Assembly (NCBI RefSeq): GCF_011398355.1
Contig: NZ_AP021889.1
Span: 868,001 to 932,000 of the forward strand
Source of the DNA: Thiosulfatimonas sediminis
GTDB taxonomy: Bacteria; Pseudomonadota; Gammaproteobacteria; Thiomicrospirales; Thiomicrospiraceae
Length of the DNA stretch: 64,000 nucleotides
Direction: 5' to 3'
Shown: in pieces, positions 14,130 through 42,704 of the stretch
How positions within the stretch are numbered: the first letter of the stretch is position 1
Layout of the letters: each line of letters opens with the position of its first letter
Position numbers and translations under genes: made by a program
The notes under the pieces: generated by a model
Told to the model about the DNA's origin: nothing
Database searches by the model: none
Seen by the model: only the letters and a program-made list of their open reading frames with translations

Positions 14130-14153
14130 TAAATGATGGATTGGGGTGGCTGA

Positions 14154-14810: not shown

Positions 14811-17800
14811 TGGAAAATGGTTTATTGGATTTTGCCGATGACAATCAGTTAGCGGGGTTTCGTTTGCAGCGGCTGGAGGTCTATAACTGGGGAACCTTCG
14901 ATAAAAAGGTCTGGACCCTGGTGTTAAATGGACAAAATACCCTGCTCACTGGTGATATTGGCTCGGGTAAATCGACGTTAGTCGATGCGGTGACCACTCT
15001 ATTGGTTCCCGCCCATCGCATTGCCTATAACAAAGCGGCAGGCGCTGAGGCGAAGGAGCGAAATTTGCGCTCTTATGTCATGGGCTACTACCGTTCGACG
15101 CGCTCCGAAAACGGTGCCAAGCAGGAGGCGTTGCGAGATCACAATGCCTATTCGGTGATTCTGGGCGTGTTTTATAACGAAGGGTTTGATCAATGGGTGA
15201 CCCTTGCTCAGGTCTTTTGGTTGAAAGAGGGTCAAAATCAACCTGCCAAGCTCTATGTGACGGCGGATAGAGACTTGAATATTGTCGAGCATTTTTCTGA
15301 TTTTGGCAGTGATATTCGTCAGCTGCGCAAGCGTTTGCGGGAGTTAGAAAACACCGAAGTTTTCGATCAGTATGCGCCTTACGCAGGCGCTTTTCGACGT
15401 CGTTTTGGCTTGCACAACGACCAAGCCTTGGAGCTGTTTCATCAAACTGTGTCGATGAAACAGGTCGGAAATTTGACCGATTTTGTGCGCGAACACATGC
15501 TGGAGCAAGGGGAGGGCCAGGCACAGGTTGAAGCGTTGATTGCCCATTTTGATGATCTGAATCGAGCGCATGAATTGGTGTTAAAAGCCAAGCGTCAAAT
15601 CGAATCTTTAGCTCCGATGGTGGAAGACGGTCGAAACCATCAAGCCGTGCAAATGCAAATTGCCGAACAGGAAGCCGCACGCGAGGCTTTAACCGGCTTT
15701 TTTGCAATGCAAAAACAGGTTTTGTTGCAAAAGCGGCAAGAAAATTTACGTAATCAATTAGAAAAACTTAAGCGGCAAATAGATTCCTTAAGCGAACAGA
15801 AGCGTTTACAGCAATTGCAACGCGAGGAGTTACAGCAGGCGATTTTCGGTGCGGGCGGTGATCGCTTAACCAAACTGACGCAGCAGCTTGCCGAAGCGGA
15901 AAGAGAAAAGTCGAAGTGTTTGCAAAAAGATCAGACTTATCAGCAACTGCTTGCCAGTTTGTCTTTAGCCAAGGTGGCTAACGAAGCGGAGTTTTTGCAA
16001 CGTCAGGACGAGATTTCAGAATCTTTGCAAGTTTTGCGCGCGGAGCAGGGCGAGGTTCAAAATACGCAGCAAGAATTGAACTTTCAAGCACGCGACCAGA
16101 ATGAGCAGTTAAAAGCCTTAGATCAAGAGTTAAGCTCATTAAAGCAACGGCAAAACAATATCGACGAGCGTCAAATACAAATCCGCCGCAGTTTATGCGA
16201 AGCCCTAGGCGCTAAAGAAAGCGAGTTGCCGTTTATCGGTGAGTTATTGCAAGTGCGAGAAGAAGAGCAAGTTTGGGAAGGGCCGATTGAACGCATTTTG
16301 CACAATTTTGCATTATCTTTATTGGTACCTGAACCGCTTTATTCCAAGGTGTCGGAATGGGTGGAACGTACTCGCTTGCAAGGGCGTCTGGTTTATTATC
16401 GTGTGCAGGAAGAACTTAAAAATCCACCCGGCCTGATGGATTCTCATCCCCATTCTTTAGTGCGCAAATTGGAAATCAAAACCGACTCCGAATTTTACCC
16501 TTGGGTGTTGGCGCAGCTGATTCGTCGTTTCGATTACGCTTGTTGTGAAGATTTATCGACCTTTCGCCGTGAAAAGCAAGCGGTCACGCTGAAAGGACAG
16601 GTGAAGTCCGGCGATCAACGTCATGAAAAAGACGACCGCCGCGCACTGAACGACCGGCGTTTCTTTGTGCTCGGTTGGAGTAATCAGCAGAAAATAGCCT
16701 CATTGGAAAAACAGGCAGAACAATTGTTGAGTGCAATCGAAACATTGCAAACGCAAGTGAATACTTATCAGCATCGCTTGGAGGCCTTAAATGGACAAAT
16801 AGAAAGCGCCAATAAACTGAGCGTTTATCAAGATTATGCCGATTTGGACTGGCAACGTTGGGCGCGGCAGATCGACTCTTGGCAAGCGGAAAAAACCGAG
16901 CTGGAAACCACCCATGATCTATTGCGCAGCTTGCAACAACAGCTGGAAAGTTTGCAGAAGGTGATGCAGCAAACAGAAGACGATTTGGATGAGACTAAGC
17001 GTGAGGAGAGTCGCCGCAGTCGTGATTTGGAGGTCTGCGAAGAAGATTTAGATGTGACATTGCAGAGCATCGAATCCGAGCGTAAAGAAGGGCGATTGAC
17101 TGAGTCTTTGCAGAACTTATTGCAATCATGGCAGCAACAATGGCAGTTGGTTTTGGCGGTGCAGGTTGAGCATATTGACGGCAAACAGACTGAAATGCGT
17201 CTTAAGGTTCAGGAGACGCTGGATGCGGCACGAAAACGCGCTGAACGCCTGCGTGACAAAATCAATAAGGCCATTAGCGAGTTTCGCCATGCTTATCCAG
17301 AAGAAACTGCTGAGCTTAGCGCCGATTTAAGCGGATTGAATGAATATGCCCAGCGTCTTGCTCAGTTGCAGGATGACGATTTACCGCGCTTTGAGCAGAA
17401 ATTCAAAGCGCAGCTCAATCAGAATGCGATTAATCAGATGTCGCATTTCAAAATTAGCTTGAAAAAAGCGCAGCAAGAGATTCGTGAGCGCATTGAAAAA
17501 ATCAATTTGTCTTTGGCGGATATCGACTATAACTCGGGGCGTTTTATCCGTTTGGAGTTGATGCAAAATCCCGACCAAGAAATCAAAACCTTTTATCAGG
17601 ATTTGGATGCTTGCGTTGAGGGGAGTTTAACGGCGAGCGAAGACTCGCCTTACGCCGAGGCCAAATTCTTGCAAGTCAAAGCTTTGGTGGATCGTTTTCA
17701 AGGGCGTGATGGTTTAACTGAACTGGATAAAAAGTGGACTCGAAAAGTGACCGATGTGCGTTATTTTTTCCAGTTTTCCGCCTCGGAACGCTGGCGTGAA

Positions 17801-18217
17801 GATGAGAGCGAATTTGAGCACTATTCCGACTCGTCAGGAAAATCCGGTGGGCAAAAGGAGAAACTGGCGTACACCGTTTTGGCAGCGAGTTTGGCGTATC
17901 AATTTGGTTTGGAGTGAGGCGAAATTAAGTCGCGTTCTTTCCGTTTTGTGGTGATCGATGAAGCCTTTGGTCGCGGTTCGGACGATTCGGCACGTTTTGG
18001 CTTAGAGTTGTTTAAACAGTTAAATCTACAATTGTTGGTGATTACGCCAAAACAAAAAATCCATGTGATTGAGCCTTATGTCTCGCACGTCGGTTTCGTC
18101 AGCAATCCCGAAGGACATCAGTCGCAATTACGCACCCTGAGCATTGATGAACATTTGGCTGAGAAAGCCAAACGCCAAGCACTGCAAGCCACAATTAGAG
18201 TGGTAAACAGCGAATGA
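14807..18217 (+). pseudogene. jetC: Wadjet SMC-like ATPase JetC with in-frame TGA
   Basis: The reading of 1136 codons has the JetC/MksB layout: Walker A GDIGSGKST at residues 49-57, long coiled-coil arms (about 270-450 and 640-880) around a hinge-like centre, and the ABC signature SGGQKEK at 1013-1019. Codon 1037 (17915-17917) is TGA, then the same frame continues GEIKSRSFRF and Walker B VVIDEAFGRGSDD to the true stop at 18217. Homologues have tryptophan at this place (WGEIKSRSFRF), so a single TGG-to-TGA change explains it. The truncated 1036-residue product would keep Walker A and signature but lose Walker B and could not hydrolyse ATP. The reading frame is otherwise undamaged, so the mutation is recent or a sequencing error. 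Confidence 0.9.
17915..17917 (+). other. Premature TGA codon inside jetC
   Basis: It sits between the ABC signature and Walker B. No frame change occurs on either side, and the codon is expected to be TGG (Trp). Confidence 0.88.
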
Positions 18218-19147
18218 TCAGCGTAGCCCAGCTGAAAGCTGATTTGTTGCAGAAATGGCCTCGACTCTATTTGTCTTGCGGTTTGGTGGATGAGGCGCAA
18301 AGGTTTCCATTAAGGGTCACGCTCAAGTCGCCGAATAACCAAACGATACTGGATGATTGGCAAAGTGTTAAAAGCTGGGCAGCCAGTTATGCTGTCTTGA
18401 ATCCGACGGATTTCAAGCTGGAATGGCAAACGCGGAAAACGCCCTTGGGAAAACAAGAACTTCCTGTAGCGGCGGTATTTTCAACCGTGATCGATTTAGC
18501 GCGTTTTTTAAAGAAACATCAGGAATTAACAACCTATTGCAATGCATGCCAAGCCTTAATTCAAAGATTTCCGGCCTTGCTCTCATGGTGTTTGAAGTCT
18601 ACCGCAAAAGTATTGCAGGAGCATGCACATTGGCACAAATTGATTCAGGTGTTGCAGTGGTTGGTCGAGCACCCTGCGCCAAATTGTTTTGTGCGGGAAA
18701 TTGCTTTGTCTGATATAGATTCTAAGTTTATCGAAGCGCATTATACTTTGTTAAATGAATGGTTATTGCTATTGCGTCCTCCTTTGGATGCTCAAGCGAA
18801 AGGCTTTGAGCGTAGATGGGGACTTAAATCCAAACCTGAACGGTTACGGCTGCGTTTTTTAGGCATGCAATCAATTTGTGGATTAAAAGATCTACAAGTC
18901 CCTTTTATCGAACTGAATCGTATTAATTGGTCTGCATTAGGCGTGGATCGTGTTTTTATCACCGAGAACGAAATCAATTTTCTAAGTTTTCCATCACAGG
19001 AAAACAGCGTGATACTCTTTGGGCAAGGTTATGGTTTTGATGCTTGGCGAGATCAAAACTGGTTAAAAAATCTCCCTATTTTCTATTGGGGAGACATTGA
19101 TACCCATGGTTTTGCGATTCTCAATCAGTTAAGAGTTTTGTTTCCAC
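18214..19147 (+). pseudogene. jetD: Wadjet nuclease JetD, 5' part (interrupted by IS66)
   Basis: The first 311 codons of JetD start with an ATGA overlap at the jetC stop. JetD is the topoisomerase-VI-like nuclease that cuts closed-circular plasmids. The N-terminal DUF3322 region is followed by the Toprim-like DUF2220 region, with the acidic residues in FITENEIN and the DxD of YWGDIDTHGF, so the catalytic acids lie in this half. At 19148 the frame enters an IS66 element and stops 12 codons later. The last 73 codons are found at 33012-33232 on the minus strand. Joining the two at the shared GTTTCCAC gives a 1155-bp frame of 384 residues without any shift. Confidence 0.93.
19140..19147. repeat. 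Target-site copy GTTTCCAC flanking IS66-A (left)
   Basis: The 8 bases before the IS66-A terminus at 19148 are GTTTCCAC. The reverse complement GTGGAAAC lies at 33233-33240, directly beside IS66-B. IS66 elements make 8-bp duplications, so these are the two halves of one insertion event separated by an inversion. Confidence 0.93.
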
Positions 19148-19178
19148 GTAAGCGGCAATTTACCCACACCCTAGTTTT

Positions 19179-20702
19179 CTAGGATGCGGTGTGGTTCCAC
19201 GGCAGAAGTGCTTCGAACTGCTCGAGGGTGTCGCAGTTGGGGAGGTTTCGGAAAAGATGAGTGAGATAGGCTTGGGGTTCGAGTCCGTTGGCTTTGGCGG
19301 TTTCAATCAAGCTGTACAGCATCGCACTGGCTTTGGCACCTTTTACCGATTGGCTAAAGAGCCAGTTCTTGCGTCCAATCGCGAAGGGACGAATGGCATT
19401 CTCAACCGGGTTGTTGTCGATATTCAATCGCCCATTCGTGGTGAAGATTTGAAGCTTTTCCCAGTTTTTTGCCAGATAGCTCAAGGCCTCACCGAGTTTG
19501 CTTTTGGGCACGGTGCTGTTGAGGCTTTTATCCAACCACGTTTTGAGCTGTTCTAAAACCCGCAGGCTTTCGGTTTGCCGGATCTCGAGTCGTTTATTTG
19601 GTGGTTGGTCTTTGATGTGTTGTTCAATTTGATAGAGCTTTTGAATGAGATTGAGTGCCATGTCCGCCTTGCCGGTTTTATTCTTAGGCAGTACTTTTTT
19701 GGCATCCATAAACTTGCGTCGGGCATGGGCCCAACAACCTAGATGGGTAATCTGTTCCGTTGCACCGATTTTGTGATAACCCGCATAGTCATCGGTTTGT
19801 AGGAAGCCTTTAAACTCAGGCAATAAATTCATGGCGGTTTGTGTGGTGCGATCCGGTGAATAGTCGAATAACACCACTGGGTGTTTTTGATCGCCCGTCT
19901 TGCGTACCCACATGTAACTGTGGCTCTCTGCGGTTTTCCCCACCTCATTGAGCACTTGCACACGCGTTTCATCCATGTGCACATAGCCACTGTCCAGCAG
20001 AGAATCTTGCATCAGGTTGTACAGAGGCTGGCAGAGTTGGGCACCCTTAATCATCCAGTTGGCCATCGTTTGGCGAGACAGTTCGACCTCTAAACGTTCA
20101 AAGGCTTTTTCTTGACGATACAGCGGTACGCCATCTTGGTATTTCGCGGTGGCAATGTAGGCAAGTAACCCAGGACCGGCGATGCTTTTGGGAATCGGCT
20201 GTTTGGGCATGGACGCTAACTTAAGCGAACCCTCACACCCTGGGCAGGCGTATTTTTTACGCACTAACTGACGAACAATGATTTTGGCAGGAATAATTTC
20301 TAATTGCTCAGAGACTTCTTCACCGATCTCTTTGAACTCTGAGCCACAGTCACATTTCTCACCGGCCGGTAAGCAATGTTCAACGCGTTGACGGGGAAGA
20401 TTCTTTGGTAAGGGTTTACGACCGGCGTTGGATTTTGCTTTGGGTGAGTCACTCGAGGATTCATCACTCGACGCTCTCAAAGACGAATTGTCCTCGACTT
20501 CGGGTTCATTAAACAGTTCCGCTTGATCGGGGTGTTTTTCACTGCTTTTATAGAATTGACGAACCTTAAAGAACATGACTAATTCAGACAGACGACTGAC
20601 TTCCGTTGATAAGGTGTCGATTTGCTGGTCTTTTTGCAAAACCAAGGCTTTTAAGACATCGATATCATCGGGTAAATCGTGAGCAGTCAGAGGTGTTTTC
20701 AT
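19179..20702 (-). CDS. tnpC: IS66 transposase TnpC (copy A)
   Basis: The 507-residue DDE transposase of the IS66 family has an N-terminal leucine-zipper-like helix (DDIDVLKALVLQKDQQIDTL), then a serine-rich linker. A zinc-binding stretch follows with GEKCDCGSE and KKYACPGCEG. The catalytic core has MDETRVQVL, LQTDDYAGY, GCWAHARRKF and the C-terminal NGRLNIDNNPVENAIRPFAIGRKNWLF, which supplies the last acidic residue. The frame is intact. Confidence 0.95.
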   Translation of the reverse strand: MKTPLTAHDLPDDIDVLKALVLQKDQQIDTLSTEVSRLSELVMFFKVRQFYKSSEKHPDQAELFNEPEVEDNSSLRASSDESSSDSPKAKSNAGRKPLPKNLPRQRVEHCLPAGEKCDCGSEFKEIGEEVSEQLEIIPAKIIVRQLVRKKYACPGCEGSLKLASMPKQPIPKSIAGPGLLAYIATAKYQDGVPLYRQEKAFERLEVELSRQTMANWMIKGAQLCQPLYNLMQDSLLDSGYVHMDETRVQVLNEVGKTAESHSYMWVRKTGDQKHPVVLFDYSPDRTTQTAMNLLPEFKGFLQTDDYAGYHKIGATEQITHLGCWAHARRKFMDAKKVLPKNKTGKADMALNLIQKLYQIEQHIKDQPPNKRLEIRQTESLRVLEQLKTWLDKSLNSTVPKSKLGEALSYLAKNWEKLQIFTTNGRLNIDNNPVENAIRPFAIGRKNWLFSQSVKGAKASAMLYSLIETAKANGLEPQAYLTHLFRNLPNCDTLEQFEALLPWNHTAS

Positions 20703-20722
20703 GGGCGGGTAAGATACCCGAA

Positions 20723-21079
20723 TTAGCTCACGTTGTCATAGAAAAGTGACTCATGCGGTTGTTGAAAAATATCCAAGCCATCGAGTAACTGATTGAGCTG
20801 TTTGCCTGTGACCGACACCGCCTCTTGATCGACGACTGGCGCTAACCATTTGAACTTGTGTTTCTCTAATCGCTTGTACCAGAGCACAAAGCCATTGCGC
20901 TCCCAGTAGAGGAGTTTGACCTTGTCGCGAGAACGGTTGCAAAACACAAACAGTGCACCATTCATGGGAGAATGTCCCAGCTCAGCTTCCACAATGGCCG
21001 CCAGTCCATTAATGGATTTACGCATATCCACCGGATCACGATAGACAAAGACGAGTGAATCAAGGCTTGGTCTAAGCAT
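20723..21079 (-). CDS. tnpB: IS66 accessory protein TnpB (copy A)
   Basis: The 118-residue IS66 Orf2 protein contains VYRDPVDMRKSINGLAAIV and LFVFCNRSRDKVKLLYWERNGF. It is required with TnpA and TnpC for transposition in IS66 systems and is unrelated to the IS200/IS605 TnpB nuclease. It overlaps tnpA by eight bases. Confidence 0.93.
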   Translation of the reverse strand: MLRPSLDSLVFVYRDPVDMRKSINGLAAIVEAELGHSPMNGALFVFCNRSRDKVKLLYWERNGFVLWYKRLEKHKFKWLAPVVDQEAVSVTGKQLNQLLDGLDIFQQPHESLFYDNVS

Positions 21080-21374
21080 GACGATTCAACTCGGTGATCA
21101 ATTGCGCTAGTTGCACCACGGAACACTCAAATGCCAATCCTTTTGCCTTGACTGCAATGCTGGTTGAGCACGGTTCAGGCTGATCGTGAATCACCATCGG
21201 CAAAAAGGCAGAAGATTCTTTGATGGGTGCTTGGCTTAAGTTTCGAAGCCTACGTCGCCAAGTATAAAAGGTTGAAATCGCCAAGCCTTGCTGCTGGCAA
21301 AATGCCCGTTGTGAAAGGCCACTGGCTTGCCAATCGGCAATGCGCTGCACCCAAAGTTCGTGTTTGCTCATCAA
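21072..21374 (-). CDS. tnpA: IS66 accessory protein TnpA (copy A)
   Basis: The 100-residue helix-turn-helix protein contains WQASGLSQRAFCQQQGLAIS followed by TFYTWRRRLR, a Xre/Tn3-like DNA-binding motif found in IS66 Orf1. It is the first gene of the element, 80 bases inside the terminus. Confidence 0.92.
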   Translation of the reverse strand: MMSKHELWVQRIADWQASGLSQRAFCQQQGLAISTFYTWRRRLRNLSQAPIKESSAFLPMVIHDQPEPCSTSIAVKAKGLAFECSVVQLAQLITELNRHA

Positions 21375-21454
21375 AATTCTCCTGTGATTGAAAACACATA
21401 GAAGAATAACGAATTTTATCCAGGAATTTTAGATGTGGGTAAATTGGCGCTTAC

Positions 21455-21790
21455 GCATTTTTCGCTTCAATGGTTACCTTTTCATATCCCTCAATCAATA
21501 GTAATTCTTTAACTAATTGTTCTAATCCAATACCACCACTTTTGAGGTAAGTTTTTCCACTTTGCAGATTTGATAAAAGTTGTTGTTTGAATTGTTCTTC
21601 TTGTTCTAGCTGCTTTTGACTAATAGCAGAATTAAAGTGATAGGAATTTCCAGCCATTAATTCAGTTTGAACTGTTTTGATTTGATCTGCGAATTCATTG
21701 AGACTGACAACCGACATCCTTATTTTTAGCCGACTGGAAAATGATTGTTCAACCTGATCTCTTGAAACTTCAATTAGGCGGTAAATCACG
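21455..21790 (-). pseudogene. Mrr-like restriction endonuclease fragment
   Basis: About 110 codons remain, read leftward until the IS66-A terminus cuts them. The last part, SGGIGLEQLVKELLLIEGYEKVTIEAKNA, is the N-terminal strand-helix of a Mrr-type PD-(D/E)xK domain; the catalytic residues that would follow are lost. The upstream part (VSRDQVEQSFSSRLKIRMSV) is helical. The fragment is joined at about 21790 to a truncated integrase in another frame, so it is bounded by a deletion on one side and an IS on the other. The assignment rests on one motif. Confidence 0.5.
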
Positions 21791-22402
21791 GGTTGGATCA
21801 AATGGACAGACTCCCATTCCAACCGAATACCTGAACACCCTGCTCGCATAGCCCCGAACTTTTTTAAGCATATTTAAAGTACCGCGCGCTTCAATACGTT
21901 TAAACACTTCAAGCATATCCATCGCTGAGATCTCTGCAATCTTACGTTCTTGCAGAAAAGGCAAAAGATGATTCTGGCAACGTTCATCTAAATCTTTGGC
22001 ATAACCTTCACTCCAAGACTCAAAGTTATGCTCATACCACTCCTGATACATATCAGAAAAGGTTTTAATGGTTGCTTCTTCAGGAATCTCAGGTTCTGAT
22101 TTAATTCTAGGATCGATTCCTGATTTAATCTGAATTTTTAAATCATCACGGGCTCGACGAGCCTCCGCAAGTGAAACGGAAGGATAATCACCAAGTGACA
22201 GCATTGTTGCCTTGCCACCAATTCGGCAACGATAGCGCCAAGCTTTTACGCCATTAGGCTTAATTTCCAAAACCAACCCATGAGAATCAGTTTTTCGGTA
22301 AAGCTTTTCTTGAGGTTTAAAATTTTTGACCTGGGTATTGTTTAGCACCTTGTACTCACATTTTTTGTACTCACCTGTACTCATACTCAAATTTATACTC
22401 AT
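21770..22402 (-). pseudogene. Tyrosine integrase, truncated (tRNA-Ser island)
   Basis: The 210-residue N-terminal half of a P4-like island integrase starts as KVLNNTQVKNFKPQEKLYRKTDSHGLVLEI. The arm-binding domain includes MLSLGDYPSVSLAEARRARDDLK. The core-binding domain follows (TFSDMYQEWYEHN, ALF-like helices, YASRVFRYSVGMGVCPFDPTRDL) and the frame stops at 21770. The catalytic domain with R-HxxR-Y is absent, replaced by the Mrr-like fragment. It sits 134 bases beyond the 3' end of tRNA-Ser and points away from it, the usual position for an integrase that used this tRNA gene as attachment site. Confidence 0.85.
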
Positions 22403-22497
22403 TTTTTTGTGAGATGTATAGATTTCAGTTGAAACTAGATGAGATAGTTAAAAATCAGGAACAAGGCTCTAAGCCAGTAAACACGGGGGTTTTGGGC

Positions 22498-22526
22498 AAA
22501 AAAAACCCGTCTGGGACGGGTTCTTT
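22498..22526 (-). terminator. Terminator downstream of tRNA-Ser
   Basis: On the minus strand AACCCGT / ACGGGTT forms a 7-bp stem with a 5-base loop followed by T8. It lies ten bases after the tRNA CCA end. Confidence 0.85.
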
Positions 22527-22535
22527 TAAGTGTAA

Positions 22536-22628
22536 TGGCGGAGACGGAGGGATTCGAACCCTCGATAGAGCTACAAACCCTATACTCCCTTAGCAGGGGA
22601 GCGCCTTCAGCCTCTCGGCCACGTCTCC
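22536..22628 (-). tRNA. tRNA-Ser (GCU anticodon)
   Basis: A 93-nt serine tRNA has acceptor stem GGAGACG / CGTCTCC, an encoded CCA end, a long variable arm typical of tRNA-Ser, and the anticodon GCT (plus-strand AGC at 22592-22594) in the loop CTGCTAA. It follows csrA, as in many gammaproteobacteria (alaS-csrA-serX type order), and served as an integration site for the adjacent island. Confidence 0.96.
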
Positions 22629-22776
22629 AAAATGTGTGCGTATAATACCTACTCTAAGCAGGCTTGTAAACCTTTTAGCAAAGATTTTTCGTAAAGTTTT
22701 TAAGCAAGTAATTCACTTGAAATTAAATGCTGAACATCACTATGAAGCGACAAAATTGGCTGGAATAATCCATCGA

Positions 22777-23010
22777 TTAGGTAGGTTCTGAACTAGAGAG
22801 TGGCGTTTTTTGATCGCTCGCAACTGCATTTTTTTCCGACGTGTCAGAGTTAGGCTTTTTACCATTTAATAACTCTTCTCGGTGAATTGGAACCTTTTGC
22901 GGCGCTTCAATCCCGATTCTAACTTGACTTCCTTTAACAGAAAGAATTGTCACCTTGATGTCGCCATCAATCACTAGTGCCTCACCCTCCCGTCTTGTTA
23001 ATACCAGCAT
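22777..23010 (-). CDS. csrA: Carbon storage regulator CsrA
   Basis: Starting at ATG 23010 with a very strong GGAGGGAG seven bases before it, the product is 77 residues: [23 protein letters not shown], then [17 protein letters not shown]. CsrA is a dimeric RNA-binding protein that represses or stabilises mRNAs by binding GGA motifs. The RNA-contacting N-terminal strand (Leu4, Arg6) and the VPIHRE segment are conserved. Residues 59-77 form a polar extension (serine, threonine, lysine rich) that makes it longer than the 61-residue E. coli protein. It lies between alaS and tRNA-Ser on the same strand. Confidence 0.95.
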
Positions 23011-23190
23011 TTTGCTCCCTCCGTTAGAACACGCCAACCAGTATAAGGTTTTGGTCTATAGAAAAAAATGCACTACGTTAAAATACGGAAAGTTAATCGC
23101 TTTAAATTGAGCGAAGATAATTCTCTTATAGCAACCAAGGTTTTTGCAAACTCGCATAAATTAAAAGTCCAAAGTAAGTCTGTAAAAAAC

Positions 23191-23227
23191 AAAAACCCGT
23201 TTTAGCATCAGGCCAAAACGGGTTTTT
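23191..23227 (-). terminator. Terminator of alaS
   Basis: AAAAACCCGTTTT pairs with AAAACGGGTTTTT (loop about 11 bases), with a T-rich tail on the minus strand. It lies 25 bases beyond the alaS stop. Confidence 0.85.
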
Positions 23228-23251
23228 GAAAGGCTGGATTTTAATAAAAAA

Positions 23252-25843
23252 TTATTTTGACTCTGCCCAAGCTTTAACCGAATTTAAAGCAGCCTCTAAA
23301 TTATCTGGTTGATTGCCGCCTGCCTGCGCCATATCAGGACGACCACCGCCTTTACCGCCAACTTGTTGCGCTACGTGATTAACCAATTCACCGGCCTTGT
23401 AAGTCCCCGTTACCGACTTACTAACCCCCGCCGTTAACGCAATATTATCGCCATCTACGGCAGCCAATAGAATCACTGCTGGATCTAACTTATCTTTCAA
23501 CTTATCGACCGTCTCGCGCAATATCGTGCGGTCAGCACCCTCCATTATTGCCGCAAGAACATTGACGTTACCGACTTTAATGGCCGAACTCGCCAAATCA
23601 TCTCCTTGAGACGCGGCCAACTTAGCTTGCAGCGTTTTGAGCTCTTTTTCCAGCGCTTTATAATCAGCCACCAATTGTGTCACCTTATTGATCACTTGTG
23701 CTTTATCGCTTTTCACCGTATCAGCGATGTTTAGCAGCGCATCCTCTTCGTCATAAATTACTTGCCAAGCAGCCTCACCAGTAATGGCTTCAATACGACG
23801 CACACCGGAGGCAATTCCACTTTCGGAAAGTAGACGGAATGGCCCAATATCGCCAACCGACTTTACGTGGGTTCCGCCACATAACTCGACAGAGAAATCG
23901 CCCATATCCACTACGCGAACTACGTCACCATATTTTTCGCCGAACAGAGCCATGGCTCCACGTGCTTTTGCGTCTTCAATCGCCATCTCAGAAATGGTAA
24001 CCGGCGTATTATTCATAATTTCTAAATTGACCAGACGCTCGATTTCACGCAGCTGTTGGTTAGAAATCGGCTCAAAATGCGAGAAGTCAAAACGTAGGCG
24101 ATCAAACCGCACCAAAGACCCTTTCTGCCCGACATGTGTGCCTAAAACCGTGCGTAAAGCAGCATGTAGCAAATGGGTAGCCGAATGATTACGCTCGCAA
24201 TCACGACGCTTAATCACATCAATTTTTGCGTGGACACTCTGTCCAACAGCAACGGTTCCAGCGGTCGCTTTACCATAATGCAAAAACAGGCTGCCCTGCT
24301 TCTGGGTATCATCAACATGAAAACTGTGCATTCCTTCAGTCAAGCTACCACAATCCCCGCTCTGGCCACCGGACTCTGCATAAAATGGAGTTTGATTCAA
24401 CAAAATGACAGCTGCATCGCCCTCATTGATTGACTGCACCGACTTGCCATCAACAAATATTGCAATAATCGATGCATCCGCTTCGTCTTGCTGATAACCG
24501 ATAAACTGAGTGCTACCATCAAATTCGATACGCGCATTCCCGGAAGCACCGAAGTTAGAAGCCGAACGAGCACGTTCACGCTGTGCCTCCATCGCAACAC
24601 CAAAACCGGCTTGGTCAACCGTTAAATTACGTTCACGTGCCACATCCGCAGTTAAATCGATAGGAAAGCCGTAAGTGTCATACAACTTAAAGGCCATTTC
24701 ACCATCGATAACCGTACCGCTCATGCCAGCAATATACTCTTCCAACAGTTTCATACCATTTTCTAAGGTCTCGGCAAAGCGCTCTTCTTCAAGCTTTAGC
24801 ACACGCTCAACATTCGCCTGTTCTTTGGCTAATTCTGGGTAGGCTGCACCCATCTGCTCAACCAAGGTATCGACTAATTGATAGAAAAACGGCTGAGTTT
24901 GTCCCAATTTGTAACCGTGTCGAATAGCGCGACGAATGATACGACGCAACACATAACCACGCCCCTCATTGGAAGGCAAAACGCCGTCGGCAATGGTGAA
25001 CGAACAGGAGCGAATATGATCCGAGATAACGCGCAGAGAGCTGTTAGTCAAATCTCTTTCACCTGTTAATTCTGATGCTTTTTTTACCAACGCCTGAAAC
25101 AGATCAATTTCATAGTTGTTATGAACACCCTGCATCACCGCAGCCAAACGCTCCAAGCCCATACCAGTATCCACTGAAGGCTTTGGTAAAGGCGTTAAAG
25201 TACCGTCTGCCGAACGGTCAAATTGCATGAATACCAAGTTCCAAATTTCGATATAACGATCACCGTCCTCATCTGGCGAACCTGGAGGGCCTCCGGCAAT
25301 GTCTGCGCCATGATCATAGAAAATTTCTGTACAAGGTCCACAAGGCCCGGTATCCCCCATTGACCAGAAATTGTCTTTTGCGCCGCAACGTGAAAAACGC
25401 TCCGCAGACACCCCCATTTCTTGAAGCCAAATCATCTCGGCTTCTTTGTCTTCCTCAAAAACCGTTACCCACAGTTTTTCAGGCGGTAGCTTTAATTCTT
25501 CGGTTAAAAACTGCCAAGCAAATTGAATCGCCTCTTTCTTAAAATAATCGCCAAAACTGAAATTACCCAGCATTTCAAAGAAAGTGTGATGACGCGCTGT
25601 GTAGCCAACATTTTCCAAATCGTTATGTTTACCGCCGGCACGAATACAACGCTGCACGGAAGTTGCACGCGTATAATCGCGCTTATCCTGTCCCAAAAAG
25701 ACATCTTTAAACTGCACCATTCCTGCATTTGTAAATAAAAGTGTTGGGTCATTCATTGGCACAACAGGGCTGGAATGCACTGCGCTGTGCTGGTGTTGCA
25801 CAAAAAAGTCGACAAAAGCTTTTCTGAGTTCTGCACTGGTCAT
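23252..25843 (-). CDS. alaS: Alanyl-tRNA synthetase
   Basis: The 863-residue class II synthetase charges tRNA-Ala. The N-terminal catalytic domain shows [15 protein letters not shown], the motif-1 region [17 protein letters not shown] and motif 3 with TGMGLERLA. The editing domain has the zinc-binding [11 protein letters not shown] and [13 protein letters not shown]. The C-terminal C-Ala region ends with [17 protein letters not shown], the characteristic terminal motif. Length is normal. It lies downstream of recA-recX and upstream of csrA. Confidence 0.98.
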
Positions 25844-25969
25844 AGTTCGTTTAACCTTAAAAAAATAAAATAATGAGTTGACTGCGACAGTCGGAAATTC
25901 TTTACAAACAATTCGTTCAGACGCAAAACAGGCTCACACTATCGTGACGTGGACCTACTCGGAATGCCT

Positions 25970-26626
25970 TTAACGAAAAAGCCGCCATATAAGCTCCGGA
26001 CTGTAACCGCGGCTTTGCAAAAAACGCATCTGTTTTGCCTTATCCTTAGGCAATAAAAAAGCGCCTTTAGCACCACTTTTTACGCCGTATTTTTTATCCA
26101 ACACTGCGCGCATTTGTTCAAGCAAAGCATCTTTATCCAAATCCAAATAATCGTTAAGCAATTCGGTACGGCTCGATTTTTGTTGCGCTTTTTGGCGAAT
26201 CTTCATCGGGCCTTGGCCTTTCGCCAATAAACTGCTCACCAACTGCTCTATATAACGTTCGTCACTCTGCCAATTACACTCTTGGCAGTGCGCCAAGCAA
26301 GACTGCAACTGTTCGTTAAACTGCGCCTCGTCAATTCCATATTTCTTAAGGTCTTCCACTTGAGAACTAAATTTTTTACGCAGTTTTTCTAAAAGTTCTT
26401 TATCACCATGCTCACGCTGACCAAGCAAACGCAACGCATGATTTTGCATATCCTGTTGCAATTGAGCCTCTTGACCCGCAGAAGGATCAAAAGGCTGCAA
26501 AAAATCTTCATCCCAAGCTTGCTGCAAAAACGCATTACGCTCTGCAGACGGTTTGACACCCTGCGCCGCTTCTAAAGAATCCGTCGCAATGCCAAGCGCC
26601 TGCAAAAACTGCGTAGCGTCTTTCAT
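25970..26626 (-). CDS. recX: Regulatory protein RecX
   Basis: The 218-residue protein carries the RecX helical repeats in its second half: LLGQREHGDKELLEKLRKKF, SSLLAKGQGPMKIRQKAQQ and FLQSRGYSPELIWRLFR. RecX binds RecA filaments and limits their activity. The N-terminal 60 residues are a poorly conserved extension (RecX proteins are usually 150-200 residues). It lies 31 bases after recA and is probably co-transcribed by readthrough. Confidence 0.9.
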   Translation of the reverse strand: MKDATQFLQALGIATDSLEAAQGVKPSAERNAFLQQAWDEDFLQPFDPSAGQEAQLQQDMQNHALRLLGQREHGDKELLEKLRKKFSSQVEDLKKYGIDEAQFNEQLQSCLAHCQECNWQSDERYIEQLVSSLLAKGQGPMKIRQKAQQKSSRTELLNDYLDLDKDALLEQMRAVLDKKYGVKSGAKGAFLLPKDKAKQMRFLQSRGYSPELIWRLFR

Positions 26627-26657
26627 AAATCAATCAGCTCGGTTCTGAATAAAAAAA

Positions 26658-27716
26658 TTAAGCGTCAAATAAAGATTCTGGCGCATCTTCTTCAATTACA
26701 GCAATCGGTTCAGCCTGAGTCTTTTTACTCGGCATTAAATTGGCTTTAATCTGCTTCATCAAAATATCTGCTACGTCTGGATTATCAATTAAATACTGGC
26801 GCGCATTGTCTTTACCTTGGCCAATTTTAGTCCCATCGTAGCTATACCAAGAGCCGGATTTTTCAATTAACTTCTCTTGCACGCCAAGATCGATAATTTC
26901 ACCCTCACGAGAAATGCCTTTGCCGTATAAAATATCAAATTCTACCTGTTTAAATGGCGGAGAAACTTTGTTTTTGACAACCTTAACACGGGTCTCATTA
27001 CCGAGGATTTCATCGCCTTTTTTAATGGCACCAATGCGACGAATATCTAAACGAACCGAAGCATAGAATTTTAAGGCATTGCCACCCGTGGTGGTTTCAG
27101 GGCTACCGAACATAACCCCTATTTTCATACGAATTTGATTGATGAATATCACTAAAGTGTTGGTACGTTTAATGTTGGCCGTTAATTTGCGCAATGCCTG
27201 CGACATTAAGCGCGCTTGCAAACCAACGTGCGAGTCACCCATATCGCCCTCAATTTCCGCACGAGGCGTTAAGGCCGCAACCGAATCAATAACCACAATA
27301 TCCACGGCACCAGAGCGCACCAGCGCATCGGTAATTTCTAACGCTTGCTCCCCCGTATCCGGCTGAGAAACCAAAAGGTTATCAATATCCACACCCAGCT
27401 TTTCTGCATACAAAGGGTCTAAGGCGTGCTCGGCATCAACAAAGGCGGCCGTTCCACCGGCTTTTTGCATCTCGGCAATAGCGTGCAACGTCAAGGTCGT
27501 TTTACCTGAAGACTCCGGACCATAAATTTCAACAACACGACCACGCGGCAGACCGCCTATGCCCAGTGCAATATCCAAACCGAGTGATCCAGTGGAAACC
27601 GACTCAATATCTCGCGGCGCAGTATTATCCCCCATTCGCATAATCGACCCTTTACCAAACTGTTTTTCAATTTGGCCAAGAGCGGCACTGAGCGCTTTCT
27701 TTTTGTTTTCATCCAT
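26658..27716 (-). CDS. recA: Recombinase RecA
   Basis: From ATG 27716 (AAGGA twelve bases upstream) the product is 352 residues, beginning [21 protein letters not shown], which matches the RecA start. The frame is open for 21 more codons with another ATG at 27734, but those lack a ribosome binding site. Walker A is [10 protein letters not shown] and the core has the expected EHALDPLYA and [11 protein letters not shown]. The DNA-binding loops [15 protein letters not shown] and [20 protein letters not shown] are intact. I looked for an E. coli-type LexA box upstream and saw none. Confidence 0.97.
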
Positions 27717-28046
27717 GGGTATCGAATCCTTCATTTTTGTCAAAAAACCGCCCAATAGCAGTTTTAAATTTGCGAGCAATCGTGCAGGAGAGTCACCAAA
27801 TCTTTAGCGGATAATGGCGGGCAAAAAATTAGCCTGAAATTATCCCATAATCACCGACTAAATCCTAGGGGCTGTTCAATATTCACTCCTGTAAGAAGCC
27901 TTTGATCATTGCGTAAAGTTCTATTATCTCCTGCTCGGAAATAACAATAGTAAACCACAAACTTGATTTTTGATACAGTAATTAAATAACATCTACTAAC
28001 GAAAAGCAGCAAAACACCGAAAGTAAATTGTCGCACTTTAATGCAA

Positions 28047-28526
28047 TTAGATAAGTGCTTCTATACCTTGTAAGGCGGCTTGCGTAGCTTGTTCGCGCAC
28101 CATTTGGCGGTCTCCGTCAAAATGATAACAACTGCTTTCAACCTTATCATGCCCTTGTTTTGCCCAGGCTATCCAAACCGTACCGACAGGCTTATCCAAT
28201 GAACCGCCCGTTGGCCCAGCAATCCCACTACAGGCGACAGCAACATTAGCGTGCGACTGTTGCAAAGCGCCAAGAGCCATCTCTTCAACACACGCTTGAC
28301 TCACCGCCCCTTGCTTTTGTATGGTCGCTTCCTTTACCCCAAGCATTTCGCGTTTTGACTCATAACTGTAAGTCACATAGGCTCGATCAAACCAAGCAGT
28401 ACTCCCGCTAATCGCCGTTAAGGCTTCGGCAATCATTCCCCCTGTGCAGGATTCCGCGGTTACCACGGTAATATTTTTATCGGCTAGGCGAGGGCCTAAC
28501 TGGTTCATCTGCGCAATAAAATCCAT
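28047..28526 (-). CDS. pncC: Nicotinamide-nucleotide amidohydrolase PncC (CinA C-terminal domain)
   Basis: The 159-residue stand-alone CinA C-terminal domain deamidates nicotinamide mononucleotide to nicotinic acid mononucleotide in NAD recycling. The family motifs are present: VTAESCTGGMIAEALTAISGSTAWF with the catalytic serine region, then VACSGIAGPTGGS and KPVGTVWIAW. ATG 28526 with GGGAG seven bases upstream is preferred over a TTG two codons earlier. It precedes recA on the same strand, the common gammaproteobacterial arrangement. Confidence 0.93.
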   Translation of the reverse strand: MDFIAQMNQLGPRLADKNITVVTAESCTGGMIAEALTAISGSTAWFDRAYVTYSYESKREMLGVKEATIQKQGAVSQACVEEMALGALQQSHANVAVACSGIAGPTGGSLDKPVGTVWIAWAKQGHDKVESSCYHFDGDRQMVREQATQAALQGIEALI

Positions 28527-29169
28527 GTTCAACTCCCGATGTAAAACTGTCGCTATTTAGTTAGCGGCTAGCATACCGTTTTTTTACACGCCCGCAAAAT
28601 GTCAGAGACAACGAAAACCGCTCACGACTAAAAAATCGCTATAAAAACATCAAACATCCCTCCTTTTGCTTAACCGAAACCTTTGCAGTGTCGTAAACCG
28701 CTTGGCGTTTTGCAGATTTGCTTAGGGGAGAGTTGATGCTGCTCAATATATACCCAACTTTAGGGGACTATCGTGTTGCAACACTGCCAAAGCGGTTGTG
28801 AAATAGCACAACATAAATAAAAGACATACGATTACTTTTTTAACTTAAAAAATTAAAACTTGCGTAATCAAACATAAAACGTCAATAAACAGTGCAATTA
28901 ATGAGTATTTTCACTTATTCAATATTACGTATATAGTATGCAAATATTCACCGAGTGAAACACCAAATTATGTCCGCCGAAAATTTAAGATAAATTTTAG
29001 CAAGGCATTGCTGGGGACAATTTTCAACAGTCATTGAAAAGCCTTGCTAATGAGGCGAGCGTTTTAGAGGATACAGAAAAAGTCCAAACGGCTTCAGACC
29101 GAAATCAATCGGGACTTGTCTGTATTTCACTGCGTAAATACATATTGAATCGAGCCTAAGGGGGCCGCA
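28527..29169. other. 640-bp divergent intergenic region
   Basis: It separates pncC (minus) from the hybrid kinase (plus). It has no gene-sized frame and is A+T rich. AGCAAGGC (28999-29006) and GCCTTGCT (29041-29048) form an 8-bp inverted repeat with a 34-base loop about 130 bases before the kinase start and could structure the leader of that mRNA. I could not match it to a known riboswitch. Confidence 0.4.
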
Positions 29170-31779
29170 ATGATTAACCAACATCTTCGCTTATTACTTC
29201 CCTTTATCTTGATTATTATTGGATTAGCGGCGATTGTGGTCAACATGGACTTTACGCTACGCAACGAACAACAAGCAAAAAACAACCAACAAATCCTTGA
29301 CCAAGTTACCGGCATCATCCGATCCAATTTAACCAAGACCAATGAAGACGTACAATTCATAGCGGCACTACCGCTTGCAGAAGCTTTTCTACATAACCCA
29401 CAGGACGAGCGAAGCTATCAGCAACTTTCCGACACGCTTCTAAAATTCACCAACTCTCGCCAAGACTACCATCAACTCCGGCTTCTTGATAAAAATGGAA
29501 TGGAAAAACTCCGCATTGAGCTCAACAAGCGCACCTTAAATTTAGTCCCCGAAGAAGAGTTGCAAGACAAGTCTGATCGATACTATTACCAAGCAGCCAA
29601 AACCTTGTCACCAGGTGAGATTTATCAATCGCCGCTCGATTTAAATATCGAATTCGATAAGATTGAACGCCCTTTTCGCCCCACCTTACGTTTTGTACAA
29701 GGCATTTTTTCTGGTGGTGAAATCTTGGGATACGTCGTACTTAACTACAATGTGAACTCTATTTTTAGAAACCTTGACCGAGTGATGGCAAATTATCGCA
29801 ACGAACAAACCAAGTTGTATATCGCCAACCAGCAAGGCTACTTACTTTACAGTCCAAACGACACCCAAAACTGGGGCTTTATGTTTAATCGTCCTGACTT
29901 GACCTTAGAAAAAATACAGCCTCTACTGTGGCAAAAAATACAACAACAAACACACGCCGAACAAGCATTAAAAATCGAACAGAATTTGTATTTTTACCAG
30001 CATATCTGCGCTTTTAACAGCTGCTTGGATTTAGACCCTCATGCGGTACTACCCAATCAGGCTGAAGACTTACCCTGGTACCTCATCAGCGAAACGCCAA
30101 GCTTAAACGTAAGCAACCTATTTTGGCTAAACAGTTATTGGCCATATATGATGCTATTACTCATGCTAAGCACGATTCTATTAGTACTCAAAATTAGCCA
30201 AAAATTGGGCAGAACTTATCACACTTTGGTCGAAAAACAACAGGATATCCGCAATAGTGAACAGCGTTTTGCCAAAGTCATCGAATCCATTCCTGACGGC
30301 TTAATCATCCTCAATGAGAAGGCCAAAATCGAAACGGTAAACCCAGCAGCCGAAGCGATTTTTGGCGTCGACAAAATGCAACTACTCGGCAACCCAATTG
30401 AAGTGCTGATGAGCGGGCATTTTAAAGAGATGCATTACAGCAAAACCGATGACTTTTATCATAATCCACGGCGCATTGAAATTACTCGCGAACGCCCGTA
30501 TTGTTACAAACACCCAAATGGCTCAACACACTTTGTACAGGCTACCATCAATCCCTTAAAAACGGCAGACGGCGTAATCGCTATTGTTCTAGTCAAAGAC
30601 GTGACCAAAAGCTTAAAGCAAGAAGACAAATTGCGCCAATCACAAAAGTTAGATGCCCTTGGTCAGTTAACAGGTGGCGTGGCACATGACTTCAACAATC
30701 TGTTAGCCATTATGCTCGGCAATCTGGAACTACTGGAAATGCAAGCTCAAGGCCAAGATAAACTACTGACGCGAATTACTAAAATCACCAATGCCGTCAA
30801 CAGTGCTGCAGACTTAACCCAAAAACTCCTTACGGTTTCTCGCCGCAAAAACCTTAGCGCCCAAACCGTTGACTTAAAAACGTTTATGGAAAGCACCATG
30901 GATATGCTGCTACGAACAATCAAACAACAAAAAGTGCAGATTAGTTATTCGATTGAAGACAACATCCCTGCGGTGTTTATCGACCCAAATGAATTAACCA
31001 ATGCGTTGATTAACTTACTGCTCAACGCGCGTGATGCAATGCCAAACGGCGGAAAGATCTTTATCCGCATTGAAAACGCCTATTTAGACCAAGATTACAT
31101 AAAGAGTATTTCTGACACCATTAAACAAGGCAAATATGTGCTCATTAGCGTTGAAGACAACGGTTGCGGCATACCCAAAGGCTTGCTTGATAAAGTGCTC
31201 GAACCCTTCTTCACCACCAAAGAAAAAGACAAAGGAACCGGCCTTGGTTTGGCAATGATTTACGGCTTTATAAAACAATCTAATGGCCATATGCGCATTT
31301 ACAGTGAAGAAGGGTCCGGCACAAATATCCACCTCTACTTGCCAACCATCGAAAATGCCGACACTAAAGTACCGATTAAACATGACGTTCCAGTACTGCC
31401 GCCGGAAAACTGGAGTAATTTACGCGCCTTGGTGGTAGACGATGAAGTAGAATTGGCAGAGGTCGCCGCCTCTTATCTGGAGCTAACCGGCATAACAGTT
31501 GATGTTTGCCATTCTGCCGACTCCGCTTGGCAAAAAGTTCAACAACAATCATACGACATTGTTTTCTCGGACATTGTTATGCCAGGAGAGATGGACGGCA
31601 TTGATCTACTTAAAAAATTAAAAGAACAAAAACCCAATACCGCCGTTATCTTAACCAGTGGTTTTTCTGAAGAGATGCTAACCCAGCAATACCAATTGCA
31701 AGAAAAAGCAGTCTTTGTTCACAAACCCTATAAACGCGATCAAGTTACCGATGCCATTATCAAAGCGCTAAAGAAGTAA
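29170..31779 (+). CDS. Membrane hybrid sensor kinase (Cache-like, PAS, HisKA, HATPase, REC)
   Basis: The 869-residue protein has a transmembrane helix at about 6-25, a periplasmic domain of nearly 300 residues with Cache-like features (YQLRLLDKNGMEKLRIELN) and a second helix at about 321-343. A PAS domain (360-480) follows, then the HisKA site in GQLTGGVAHDFNNLLAIM, HATPase_c (NLLLNARDAMPNGG, DNGCGIP, GTGLGLAM) and a C-terminal receiver (ALVVDDE, FSDIVMPGEMDG, HKPYKRDQ). The HDFNN-type histidine motif places it in the FixL/NtrB-like kinase class. It is three bases upstream of the REC-EAL gene, so the two form a signalling pair that probably controls cyclic-di-GMP. The ligand is unknown; small carboxylates or amino acids are common for such domains. 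Confidence 0.88.
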   Translation: MINQHLRLLLPFILIIIGLAAIVVNMDFTLRNEQQAKNNQQILDQVTGIIRSNLTKTNEDVQFIAALPLAEAFLHNPQDERSYQQLSDTLLKFTNSRQDYHQLRLLDKNGMEKLRIELNKRTLNLVPEEELQDKSDRYYYQAAKTLSPGEIYQSPLDLNIEFDKIERPFRPTLRFVQGIFSGGEILGYVVLNYNVNSIFRNLDRVMANYRNEQTKLYIANQQGYLLYSPNDTQNWGFMFNRPDLTLEKIQPLLWQKIQQQTHAEQALKIEQNLYFYQHICAFNSCLDLDPHAVLPNQAEDLPWYLISETPSLNVSNLFWLNSYWPYMMLLLMLSTILLVLKISQKLGRTYHTLVEKQQDIRNSEQRFAKVIESIPDGLIILNEKAKIETVNPAAEAIFGVDKMQLLGNPIEVLMSGHFKEMHYSKTDDFYHNPRRIEITRERPYCYKHPNGSTHFVQATINPLKTADGVIAIVLVKDVTKSLKQEDKLRQSQKLDALGQLTGGVAHDFNNLLAIMLGNLELLEMQAQGQDKLLTRITKITNAVNSAADLTQKLLTVSRRKNLSAQTVDLKTFMESTMDMLLRTIKQQKVQISYSIEDNIPAVFIDPNELTNALINLLLNARDAMPNGGKIFIRIENAYLDQDYIKSISDTIKQGKYVLISVEDNGCGIPKGLLDKVLEPFFTTKEKDKGTGLGLAMIYGFIKQSNGHMRIYSEEGSGTNIHLYLPTIENADTKVPIKHDVPVLPPENWSNLRALVVDDEVELAEVAASYLELTGITVDVCHSADSAWQKVQQQSYDIVFSDIVMPGEMDGIDLLKKLKEQKPNTAVILTSGFSEEMLTQQYQLQEKAVFVHKPYKRDQVTDAIIKALKK

Positions 31780-31782
31780 AAT

Positions 31783-32985
31783 ATGCATAAACACGCATTA
31801 ATTGTCGATGACGAACTGGGCATTTGCGAACTCATCAGTGAAGTTTGCGAGCTGCAGAACATTCAGTCTAGCTACCTGACTGATGCCACCCTCTTTACCC
31901 AAGCGCTTGGCGAACATCCAGAAACATCCTTAATCTTTCTTGACTTAAATATGCCCAACAAAGATGGCATTGAAGTCTTGCGCGAACTGACGGACATTCA
32001 ATTCCAAGGGCAATTAGTGCTAATGAGCGGCTTTGACGATGGCGTTTTATCGAGCGCCTACGAACTCGCTATCGAACTTGGCTTATGTTTAATGCCCTCG
32101 ATTACCAAGCCATTCACCTTACAAGAAATTCGCACCATTTTAGAAACGCTGTACTCACCGCTCGCTAATAGTACAACATCAATTTTGGCCGAAGACATTT
32201 GCGAACACAGTTACGAACGTGTTAAAAAATGGCTTGATAACGACCAACTCGTTGTGCATTATCAACCGCAAATTCATCTCCAAAAACTCACTCTGGAGGG
32301 CGTGGAATGCTTGGTTCGCCTGATTGATGATGATGGCATATTGATCTATCCAAACGACTTTATCAACACCGTTGAAACCCACGGCCTTAATCAAGTCTTA
32401 CTCGAAAAAGTGGTTGACCGTTTCTGTGCAGACTATCAACAAAATCCCAAATGCTTTGCCGATTTGAGTATCTCTATCAATGTCTCAGCACTTGACCTTG
32501 ACCGCCTATCCTTTCCGGACGATTTATGGGGCAAAATAAAAACCACCAACATTCAACCACAAAACATTATTGTCGAAATTACCGAATCACGCGCTATCGA
32601 GCAAATGAGAGTTGGTCTAGACATCCTAGCGCGCTTACGCTTAAAAGGCTTTCAACTTTCAATTGATGACTTTGGCACTGGCCGAGCAGTTCTTGGGAAC
32701 ATTCGTAAACTGCCTTATAACGAACTCAAAATAGACCGTTCCTTTGTCGACCAACTAACGAGCAATCCACGCACACTCTCGCTGACTCATGATCTCATCC
32801 AAATGGCTCATCATCTCGGTTTACGCATTGTCGCCGAAGGCATTGAAGACATCCAGACAGCCGAAGTCTTACGCCAGATGCACTGTGAAATCGGGCAAGG
32901 CTATCTGTATGCCAAACCCATGCCATTGGCACAACTCGCCCACTGGATAGCGCAACACCATGCAGACAAAGACAAGCCCAATTAA
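31783..32985 (+). CDS. Response regulator with EAL cyclic-di-GMP phosphodiesterase domain
   Basis: The 400-residue protein has an N-terminal receiver (LIVDDELGICELI, LIFLDLNMPNKDG with the phospho-Asp, and SITKPF) and a C-terminal EAL domain from about 145. The EAL motif itself reads ECL (EGVECLVRL), but the residues needed for metal and cyclic-di-GMP binding are present: SINVSA, VEITES, SIDDFGTG, ELKIDRSFV, VAEGIED and GQGYLYAKP. It is therefore likely an active phosphodiesterase. It starts three bases after the hybrid kinase stop. It converges on the displaced jetD 3' end, 26 bases away. Confidence 0.9.
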   Translation: MHKHALIVDDELGICELISEVCELQNIQSSYLTDATLFTQALGEHPETSLIFLDLNMPNKDGIEVLRELTDIQFQGQLVLMSGFDDGVLSSAYELAIELGLCLMPSITKPFTLQEIRTILETLYSPLANSTTSILAEDICEHSYERVKKWLDNDQLVVHYQPQIHLQKLTLEGVECLVRLIDDDGILIYPNDFINTVETHGLNQVLLEKVVDRFCADYQQNPKCFADLSISINVSALDLDRLSFPDDLWGKIKTTNIQPQNIIVEITESRAIEQMRVGLDILARLRLKGFQLSIDDFGTGRAVLGNIRKLPYNELKIDRSFVDQLTSNPRTLSLTHDLIQMAHHLGLRIVAEGIEDIQTAEVLRQMHCEIGQGYLYAKPMPLAQLAHWIAQHHADKDKPN

Positions 32986-33011
32986 TCACAAGCCTCGCCA
33001 CCAGCAACAAA

Positions 33012-33240
33012 TTACAGCGCTTCGAGCCGTTTTTTTAAAAATGGCAACGCAATCCGCTCTTGTTCCAAGCGCAAACTTTTCTGCCAGCGATGCTCCACCA
33101 ATCCTAAGTACATCGCACGCTCTTCCTGAGTGAGAGCATCCAAACACTCTGCTTTTGATGGCGAGGGTTCCTGGCACCAAAAAGACCGATGAGCCAACAA
33201 CGTTGATTCATCCATCAAAAGAGAACGTACCAGTGGAAAC
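33012..33240 (-). pseudogene. jetD: Wadjet JetD, displaced 3' part
   Basis: Read on the minus strand from the IS66-B edge, the frame gives FPLVRSLLMDESTLLAHRSFW and continues to the stop at 33012, ending KKRLEAL. This is the C-terminal end of JetD that is missing at 19147. The first 8 bases (33233-33240) are the target duplication. The 73 codons that follow continue exactly in phase with the 5' part. It lies 13.9 kb away from its 5' half and on the opposite strand. Confidence 0.93.
33233..33240. repeat. Target-site copy GTGGAAAC flanking IS66-B (left)
   Basis: It is the reverse complement of the GTTTCCAC beside IS66-A at 19140-19147. An opposite orientation is expected after inversion of the block between the two elements. 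Confidence 0.93.
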
Positions 33241-33320
33241 GTAAGCGCCAATTTACCCACATCTAAAATTCCTGAATAAAGTTCGTTATTCTTCTATGTG
33301 TTTTCAATCACAGGAGAATT

Positions 33321-33623
33321 TTGATGAGCAAACACGAACTTTGGGTGCAGCGCATTGCCGATTGGCAAGCCAGTGGTCTTTCACAACGGGCATTTTGCCA
33401 GCAGCAAGGCTTGGCGATTTCAACCTTTTATACTTGGCGACGTAGGCTTCGAAACTTAAGCCAAGAACCGATCAAAGAATCTTCTGCCTTTTTGCCGATG
33501 GTGATTCACGATCAGTCTGAACCGTGCTCAACCAGCATTGCCATCAAGGCAAAAGGATTGGCATTTGAGTGTTCCGTGGTGCAATTAGCGCAATTAATCA
33601 CCGAGTTGAATCGTCATGCTTAG
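33321..33623 (+). CDS. tnpA: IS66 TnpA (copy B)
   Basis: The 100-residue helix-turn-helix Orf1 is nearly identical to that of copy A (a few substitutions such as EPIKESS for APIKESS). GGAGAA lies eight bases before the ATG. Confidence 0.92.
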   Translation: MMSKHELWVQRIADWQASGLSQRAFCQQQGLAISTFYTWRRRLRNLSQEPIKESSAFLPMVIHDQSEPCSTSIAIKAKGLAFECSVVQLAQLITELNRHA

Positions 33624-33972: not shown

Positions 33973-33992
33973 TTCGGGTATCTTACCCGCCC

Positions 33993-35519: not shown

Positions 35520-35551
35520 AAAACTAGGGCGTGGGTAAATTGTCGCTTACA

Positions 35552-36159: not shown

Positions 36160-36266
36160 AATTCTCCTGTGATTGAAAACACATAGAAGAATAACGAACT
36201 TTATTCAGGAATTTTAGATGTGAGTAAATTGACGGTTAGCTTACTTTATTAGCGTATTTCAGGCAT

Positions 36267-42684: not shown

Positions 42685-42704
42685 GGGCGGGTAAGATACC
42701 CGAA

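Follow-up and report, generated by a model that had tools for sequence, protein, structure and literature searches.

Why does the jetD gene of Thiosulfatimonas sediminis lie in two halves, 13.9 kb apart and on opposite strands? The initial annotation of a 64,000-nucleotide stretch of this genome (the window; bases 868,001-932,000 of the genome contig) had reported this split, with matching 8-bp target copies at the two halves, and our analysis confirmed every coordinate. Window coordinates are used throughout, except for genome-wide positions of insertion sequences (IS). The genome carries two RuBisCO large-subunit genes, so the bacterium looks autotrophic; it is probably a Thiomicrorhabdus-like sulfur oxidiser. 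The locus very likely records the insertion of an IS66 element into jetD, an inversion between IS copies, at least one further IS-linked loss and the decay of a Wadjet system.

Two pieces of one jetD gene

The two pieces of jetD join into a single open reading frame. The 5' part (18214-19147, plus strand; 934 nt, codons 1-311 and one base) ends in the 8-mer GTTTCCAC (target copy 1, 19140-19147, plus) at the terminal repeat of IS66 copy A. The 3' part (33012-33240, minus strand), which holds the C-terminus with its stop codon, starts with the identical 8-mer at the end of IS66 copy B (target copy 2, 33233-33240, minus), read on the plus strand as GTGGAAAC, the reverse complement of GTTTCCAC; without the 8-mer its coding portion is 33012-33232, 221 nt on the minus strand. 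Fused on a single GTTTCCAC, the parts give 1155 nt, that is, 384 codons and a stop with the frame unchanged, which reproduces the join proposed earlier. The domain layout is DUF3322 and JetD_C (Pfam). The 5' part matches positions 1-109 of JetD_C (179 positions) and 5-314 of the PADLOC JetD1 model (391 positions); for the 3' part the matches are 105-176 and 312-385, respectively. A JetD_C scan of the genome matched only these two pieces, and the intact second jetD that the initial annotation had allowed for is absent. A complete one-chain JetD nuclease (CAP-like and Toprim) is likewise absent, with JetD_C present as two fragments 13.9 kb apart.

Intact homologues agree with the profiles that the 33012-33232 peptide is the missing C-terminus. 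The joined 384-residue protein aligns end to end with the intact JetD of a genus-mate, G011 (386-residue frame), the N part over 1-311 against 1-311 at 70% identity and the C part over 1-72 against 313-384 at 60% identity. The same jetD is shared by G011 and L030, a "Thiotrichales bacterium" MAG (JAFGXP010000049) with the closest jet operon found. Among homologous JetD frames of at least 250 residues, drawn from the loci searched, the C part also matches 85 of the 86 matched by the N part, the exception being L099. After two duplicates were dropped, all 84 homologues keep E251, D294 and D296, which lie in the N part, and E21, E37, R54, E56, Q57 and E58, numbered within the C part, where the conserved R-L-E-Q-E motif is found. 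The N part matches MksG of PDB 8b7f (E 2.4e-16). The C-terminal fragment has no match in the PDB at E up to 1, yet its identity is settled by the profile matches and the intact homologues.

The cut falls inside the Toprim domain, leaving the acidic metal-binding residues on one piece and the conserved LEQE motif on the other. In the sections consulted of a study of MksG (PMC10123090), E236 and D279 bind metal, the nuclease is drastically impaired when either is mutated, and E349/E351 are mentioned as nucleophilic residues that have been proposed as an alternative. These residues probably correspond to E251, D294 and the LEQE motif here; the E251/D294 correspondence fits the 8b7f alignment and the equal 43-residue spacing. 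The sections consulted of another study describe JetD dimerisation as mediated by the Toprim domain (PMC10586767). The initial annotation held that these junctions prove a single IS66 insertion in jetD whose flanks were parted later. The 8-mer, the frame and the homologue alignment support this reading, although "prove" goes a little too far: misassembly at the IS copies could mimic the separation, though not the insertion.

A Wadjet operon broken twice

The 5' part of jetD is the last gene of a type I Wadjet operon, for which JetA1, JetB1, JetC1 and JetD1 are the best PADLOC models in the order A-B-C-D (12651-19147). The first gene, jetA (DUF3375; 12651-14129, plus), is open, with E values of 1.1e-136 for Pfam PF11855 and 1.2e-184 for PADLOC JetA1, and jetB (DUF4194, MukE-like; 14154-14810, plus) is an open frame recognized by both Pfam and PADLOC. 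The third gene, jetC (14807-18217, plus), is interrupted by a premature in-frame TGA at 17915-17917, past which the frame runs on to 18217. Both jetC pieces match the single PADLOC JetC1 model (1123 positions), over 3-1033 and 1046-1121, and the corresponding stretch has no stop in G011 and G019. A VVIDEA stretch, which we take to be Walker B, follows the stop; a complete JetC ATPase head including Walker B is thus absent, since the TGA lies just ahead of the Walker B part. The disruption of jetD reported by the initial annotation stands, but that annotation was silent on the jetC stop codon. With jetC stopped and jetD split, the Wadjet system is broken twice. To judge from its genes, it is very probably inactive, and restriction of small circular plasmids is predicted to be absent; the sections consulted of one study report that plasmid suppression in Bacillus subtilis needed all four subunits (PMC10586767). 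The locus resembles type I Wadjet or MksBEFG (JetABCD) systems in having all four genes, the gene order, the JetD domains and the MksG match, and differs from them in being pseudogenised, with jetC stopped and jetD cut.

Low dN/dS against G011 (~0.07 for jetC and ~0.18 for the joined jetD) suggests that both losses are recent. Synonymous divergence (dS) from the same genome is 0.15 for jetA, 0.09 for jetB, 0.52 for jetC and 1.33 for jetD, and ~3.2 for recA; alaS is too diverged for a dS value. The jet values lie far below that of recA, so the common origin of the operon is younger than that of the host genomes, and at least part of the operon probably moved horizontally. We also observed that dS climbs along the operon, from 12651 to 19147 (comparison L137); jetD and the end of jetC may derive from a different allele, by allele replacement. 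Two fragments of a type III restriction enzyme lie 5' of jetA (11287-12608), matching 492-739 and 783-852 of the 871 positions of PADLOC REase_III. G011 has both of them ahead of its jetA as well, 93-97% identical, and this remnant thus seems to travel with the operon.

IS66 copies and their target duplications

Elements of the IS66 family have imperfect terminal inverted repeats and produce an 8-bp target duplication. A genome-wide search found 28 IS66 terminal repeats at no more than two mismatches, and a reversed control pattern found none. The 8-bp flanks of all pairs of IS66 ends were compared in two registers, 756 comparisons in total, which yielded ten matches of 8/8 and none of 7/8; with uniform 8-mers, ~0.01 matches of 8/8 are expected by chance (756/65536, calculated by hand). 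In seven of these ten matches both ends belong to a single element, an eighth is the jetD pair, and the remaining two arise from the copies at 1122232 and 1125608, which have a target sequence in common. Among the seven elements with matching flanks, that at 1112985-1117687 is 4.7 kb long. Identical 8-bp flanks thus occur in 7 of the 11 two-ended IS66 elements, and the genome's own copies back the 8-bp rule; no passage stating it was found in the literature examined, including the sections consulted of PMC8024623. The four elements with unpaired flanks are copies A and B and those at 13159 and 1125608, and this proportion (4/11) implies that rearrangement at IS copies is recurrent, not rare, in this genome.

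Two other arrangements of IS66 were observed. At 41130-45793, a second IS66 copy is nested inside another, and both copies have paired 8-bp flanks, TTAAATTT and GACAAAGA. At genome positions 1122232-1127914 (L022-L025), two near-identical copies with 5 differences share a target in inverted arrangement; this pair is another IS-linked rearrangement or an inverted duplication.

Copy A (19148-21454, minus; 2307 bp) and copy B (33241-35550, plus; 2310 bp) each have both terminal repeats, with right flanks GCATTTTT and AAAATATC, respectively, and an IS66 remnant (35551-36239, minus), whose far terminal repeat departs from the pattern at three positions, abuts copy B. The transposases of both copies carry DDE_Tnp_IS66, a zinc finger and the IS66 C-terminal element (Pfam). 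The two copies differ at 94 aligned positions and their alignment is broken 97 times by a mismatch or gap; their longest identical stretch is 151 bp. The IS66 copies of this genome are mosaics of one another. Swapping halves between A and B brings them closer to other copies (from 111 to 96 differences), but in this test for traces of a crossover seven of the 45 copy pairs improve more, because the copies are mosaics, which leaves A/B in 8th place. In their IS66 domains, terminal inverted repeats and 8-bp flank duplications (7/11), the elements resemble other members of the family, and no difference beyond the mosaicism among copies was seen.

Gene order and GC skew around recA

The flanks of jetD had been recognized as separated, but the route of separation was absent from the initial annotation; taken together, gene order, strand and GC skew indicate that an 11,786-bp segment (21455-33240) was inverted. 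This segment holds the integrase remnant, tRNA-Ser, alaS, recA, cinA, a histidine kinase gene, an EAL gene and the jetD 3' part, as well as ORFs at the csrA and recX positions, presumably these two genes, as labeled from position. Copies A and B stand in inverted orientation exactly at both of its ends. The surroundings of recA were compared in 17 of the 31 relatives returned. In 16 of these 17 genus-mates, cinA-recA-alaS is preceded by a divergently oriented mutS, 52 to 5,811 bases away; the stretch obtained for the remaining one, G024, contains no mutS. All 17 have tRNA-Ser(gct) 3' of alaS on the cinA strand, and tRNA-Arg(acg) follows on the same strand in all 13 stretches that show it, four stretches not showing it. 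In the window, mutS, cinA, recA, alaS and tRNA-Ser(gct) (22536-22628, minus), which marks the far end of the inverted block, are all on the minus strand, and tRNA-Arg(acg) (50828-50904, plus) is on the plus strand and is not inverted. Undoing the flip of 21455-33240 restores the order of the genus, with the jetD 3' part immediately following the IS that interrupts jetD.

GC skew changes sign within the same segment. It is -0.146 inside, +0.117 to the left and +0.088 to the right, and ranges from +0.066 to +0.133 in 28 overlapping windows of the segment's size outside it. In 15 genus-mate stretches with cinA placed on the plus strand, the skew is +0.092 to +0.149. The stretch inside the segment that carries the kinase and EAL genes on the plus strand still has a skew of -0.139, so gene strand is not the cause of the negative values. 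On undoing the inversion, the jetD flank pair re-pairs at 8/8, but GCATTTTT and AAAATATC stay unpaired. No genome was found with the IS in place and the segment un-inverted. Inversions by recombination between IS copies occur in bacterial chromosomes, and the locus resembles them in having inverted copies at both ends and one target copy per IS copy; it differs in that a further IS-linked loss probably took the partner flank of the second copy.

Unpaired flanks and the integrase remnant

A single clean inversion does not account for the remaining flanks of copies A and B, which are unpaired and imply at least one further IS-linked event. The missing flanks of A and B are on none of the other IS ends found genome-wide at no more than two mismatches; a partner for GCATTTTT is absent at the other 27 terminal repeats. 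This 8-mer belongs to a stretch that runs into a truncated integrase next to tRNA-Ser (21779-22402, minus; Arm-DNA-bind_3, Phage_int_M), and AAAATATC sits inside the IS66 remnant 35551-36239. In G020, an integrase frame is 401 residues long; the remnant matches its residues 1-196 at 82% identity and then passes into other sequence, which IS copy A cuts. The remaining 205 residues of the G020 frame have six matches in the T. sediminis genome, none above 47% identity, compared with 82% for the first half, so the other half of the remnant appears to be lost. The further loss was probably a deletion between two IS copies at the tRNA-Ser integrase; on the simplest reading, the remainder of the integrase element and half of the IS66 remnant would have gone with it. 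Adjoining the integrase remnant is an open frame without a Pfam match (21455-21849), which is likewise cut by copy A.

Proposed history and alternative explanations

The proposed history starts with jetABCD, a Wadjet operon of type I lying between mutS and cinA-recA. An IS66 element entered jetD and duplicated its 8-bp target GTTTCCAC, a step that can be read directly in the DNA. A second IS66 element would have stood in opposite orientation beyond alaS and tRNA-Ser, beside the integrase remnant. When these two inverted copies recombined, probably by a RecA-dependent homologous route, the intervening 11,786 bp would have been flipped. The jetD 5' part would have stayed with the operon as the 3' part moved to the far side and onto the other strand. 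The partner flank of the second copy would have been lost in at least one additional IS-linked event, for which a deletion between two IS copies at the integrase is the likeliest candidate. An invertible on/off switch was also considered and rejected: jetD is interrupted in both orientations, and re-inversion would only restore an IS-bearing jetD, which makes the locus a case of decay, not a switch.

The chief rival for the inversion step is misassembly across the two IS copies, which would explain the separation but not the insertion: the cell would have a simple IS66 insertion and the ancestral gene order, and the assembler would have crossed between the 2.3-kb inverted copies. Flanks, gene order and GC skew would appear no different after a wrong join, whose un-inverting would also restore the gene order and the normal sign of the skew, and short reads alone could slip where A and B are identical, over 151 bp at most. 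The genome is, however, a single contig of 2,722,826 bases, and reads of ordinary length would phase copies with so many differences and breaks almost throughout; we therefore regard misassembly as unlikely. A one-step origin, in which replicative intramolecular transposition of the jetD IS66 to a site beyond tRNA-Ser made both the copy and the inversion, would likewise leave one GTTTCCAC at each of two inverted copies. It predicts remaining flanks that are reverse complements of each other, but GCATTTTT and GATATTTT, the reverse complement of AAAATATC, agree at only 5/8 by hand comparison, and it predicts near-identical copies unless they later diverged or were converted, whereas A and B differ at 94 positions. 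This origin is very unlikely.

It is most improbable of all that the fragments still cooperate, with JetD and JetC each working in two pieces. Open frames and conserved residues have been retained in both jetD parts, and dN/dS against G011 is well below 1 for both genes, but such values are equally compatible with recent loss. The open frame of the C part starts within the IS end (33260), the two parts are encoded on different strands, the Toprim domain itself is broken, and jetC is stopped too. Insertion, inversion and at least one further IS-linked loss, with decay of the Wadjet system, remain the preferred reading.

Implications

The 8-bp target duplication remains traceable after rearrangement, identifying distant fragments as one gene and placing the inversion after the insertion. 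By title or the beginning of the abstract, no disrupted jetD was found among papers on Wadjet and IS66, and a search of the literature on IS inversions matched only a nematode transposon and a mosquito inversion. The locus also carries a warning for annotation. Strong matches to Wadjet models persist in JetC, although it is truncated to 1036 residues, and in the JetD 5' part; a profile scan could therefore report a working Wadjet system. We think it quite doubtful that the loss of this otherwise well-conserved, horizontally moved anti-plasmid operon was selected, through two independent hits; if it was, the lineage would have been opened to small plasmids. Beyond its value as a worked example and as a warning for annotation, the locus is a case of ordinary IS-driven genome decay.
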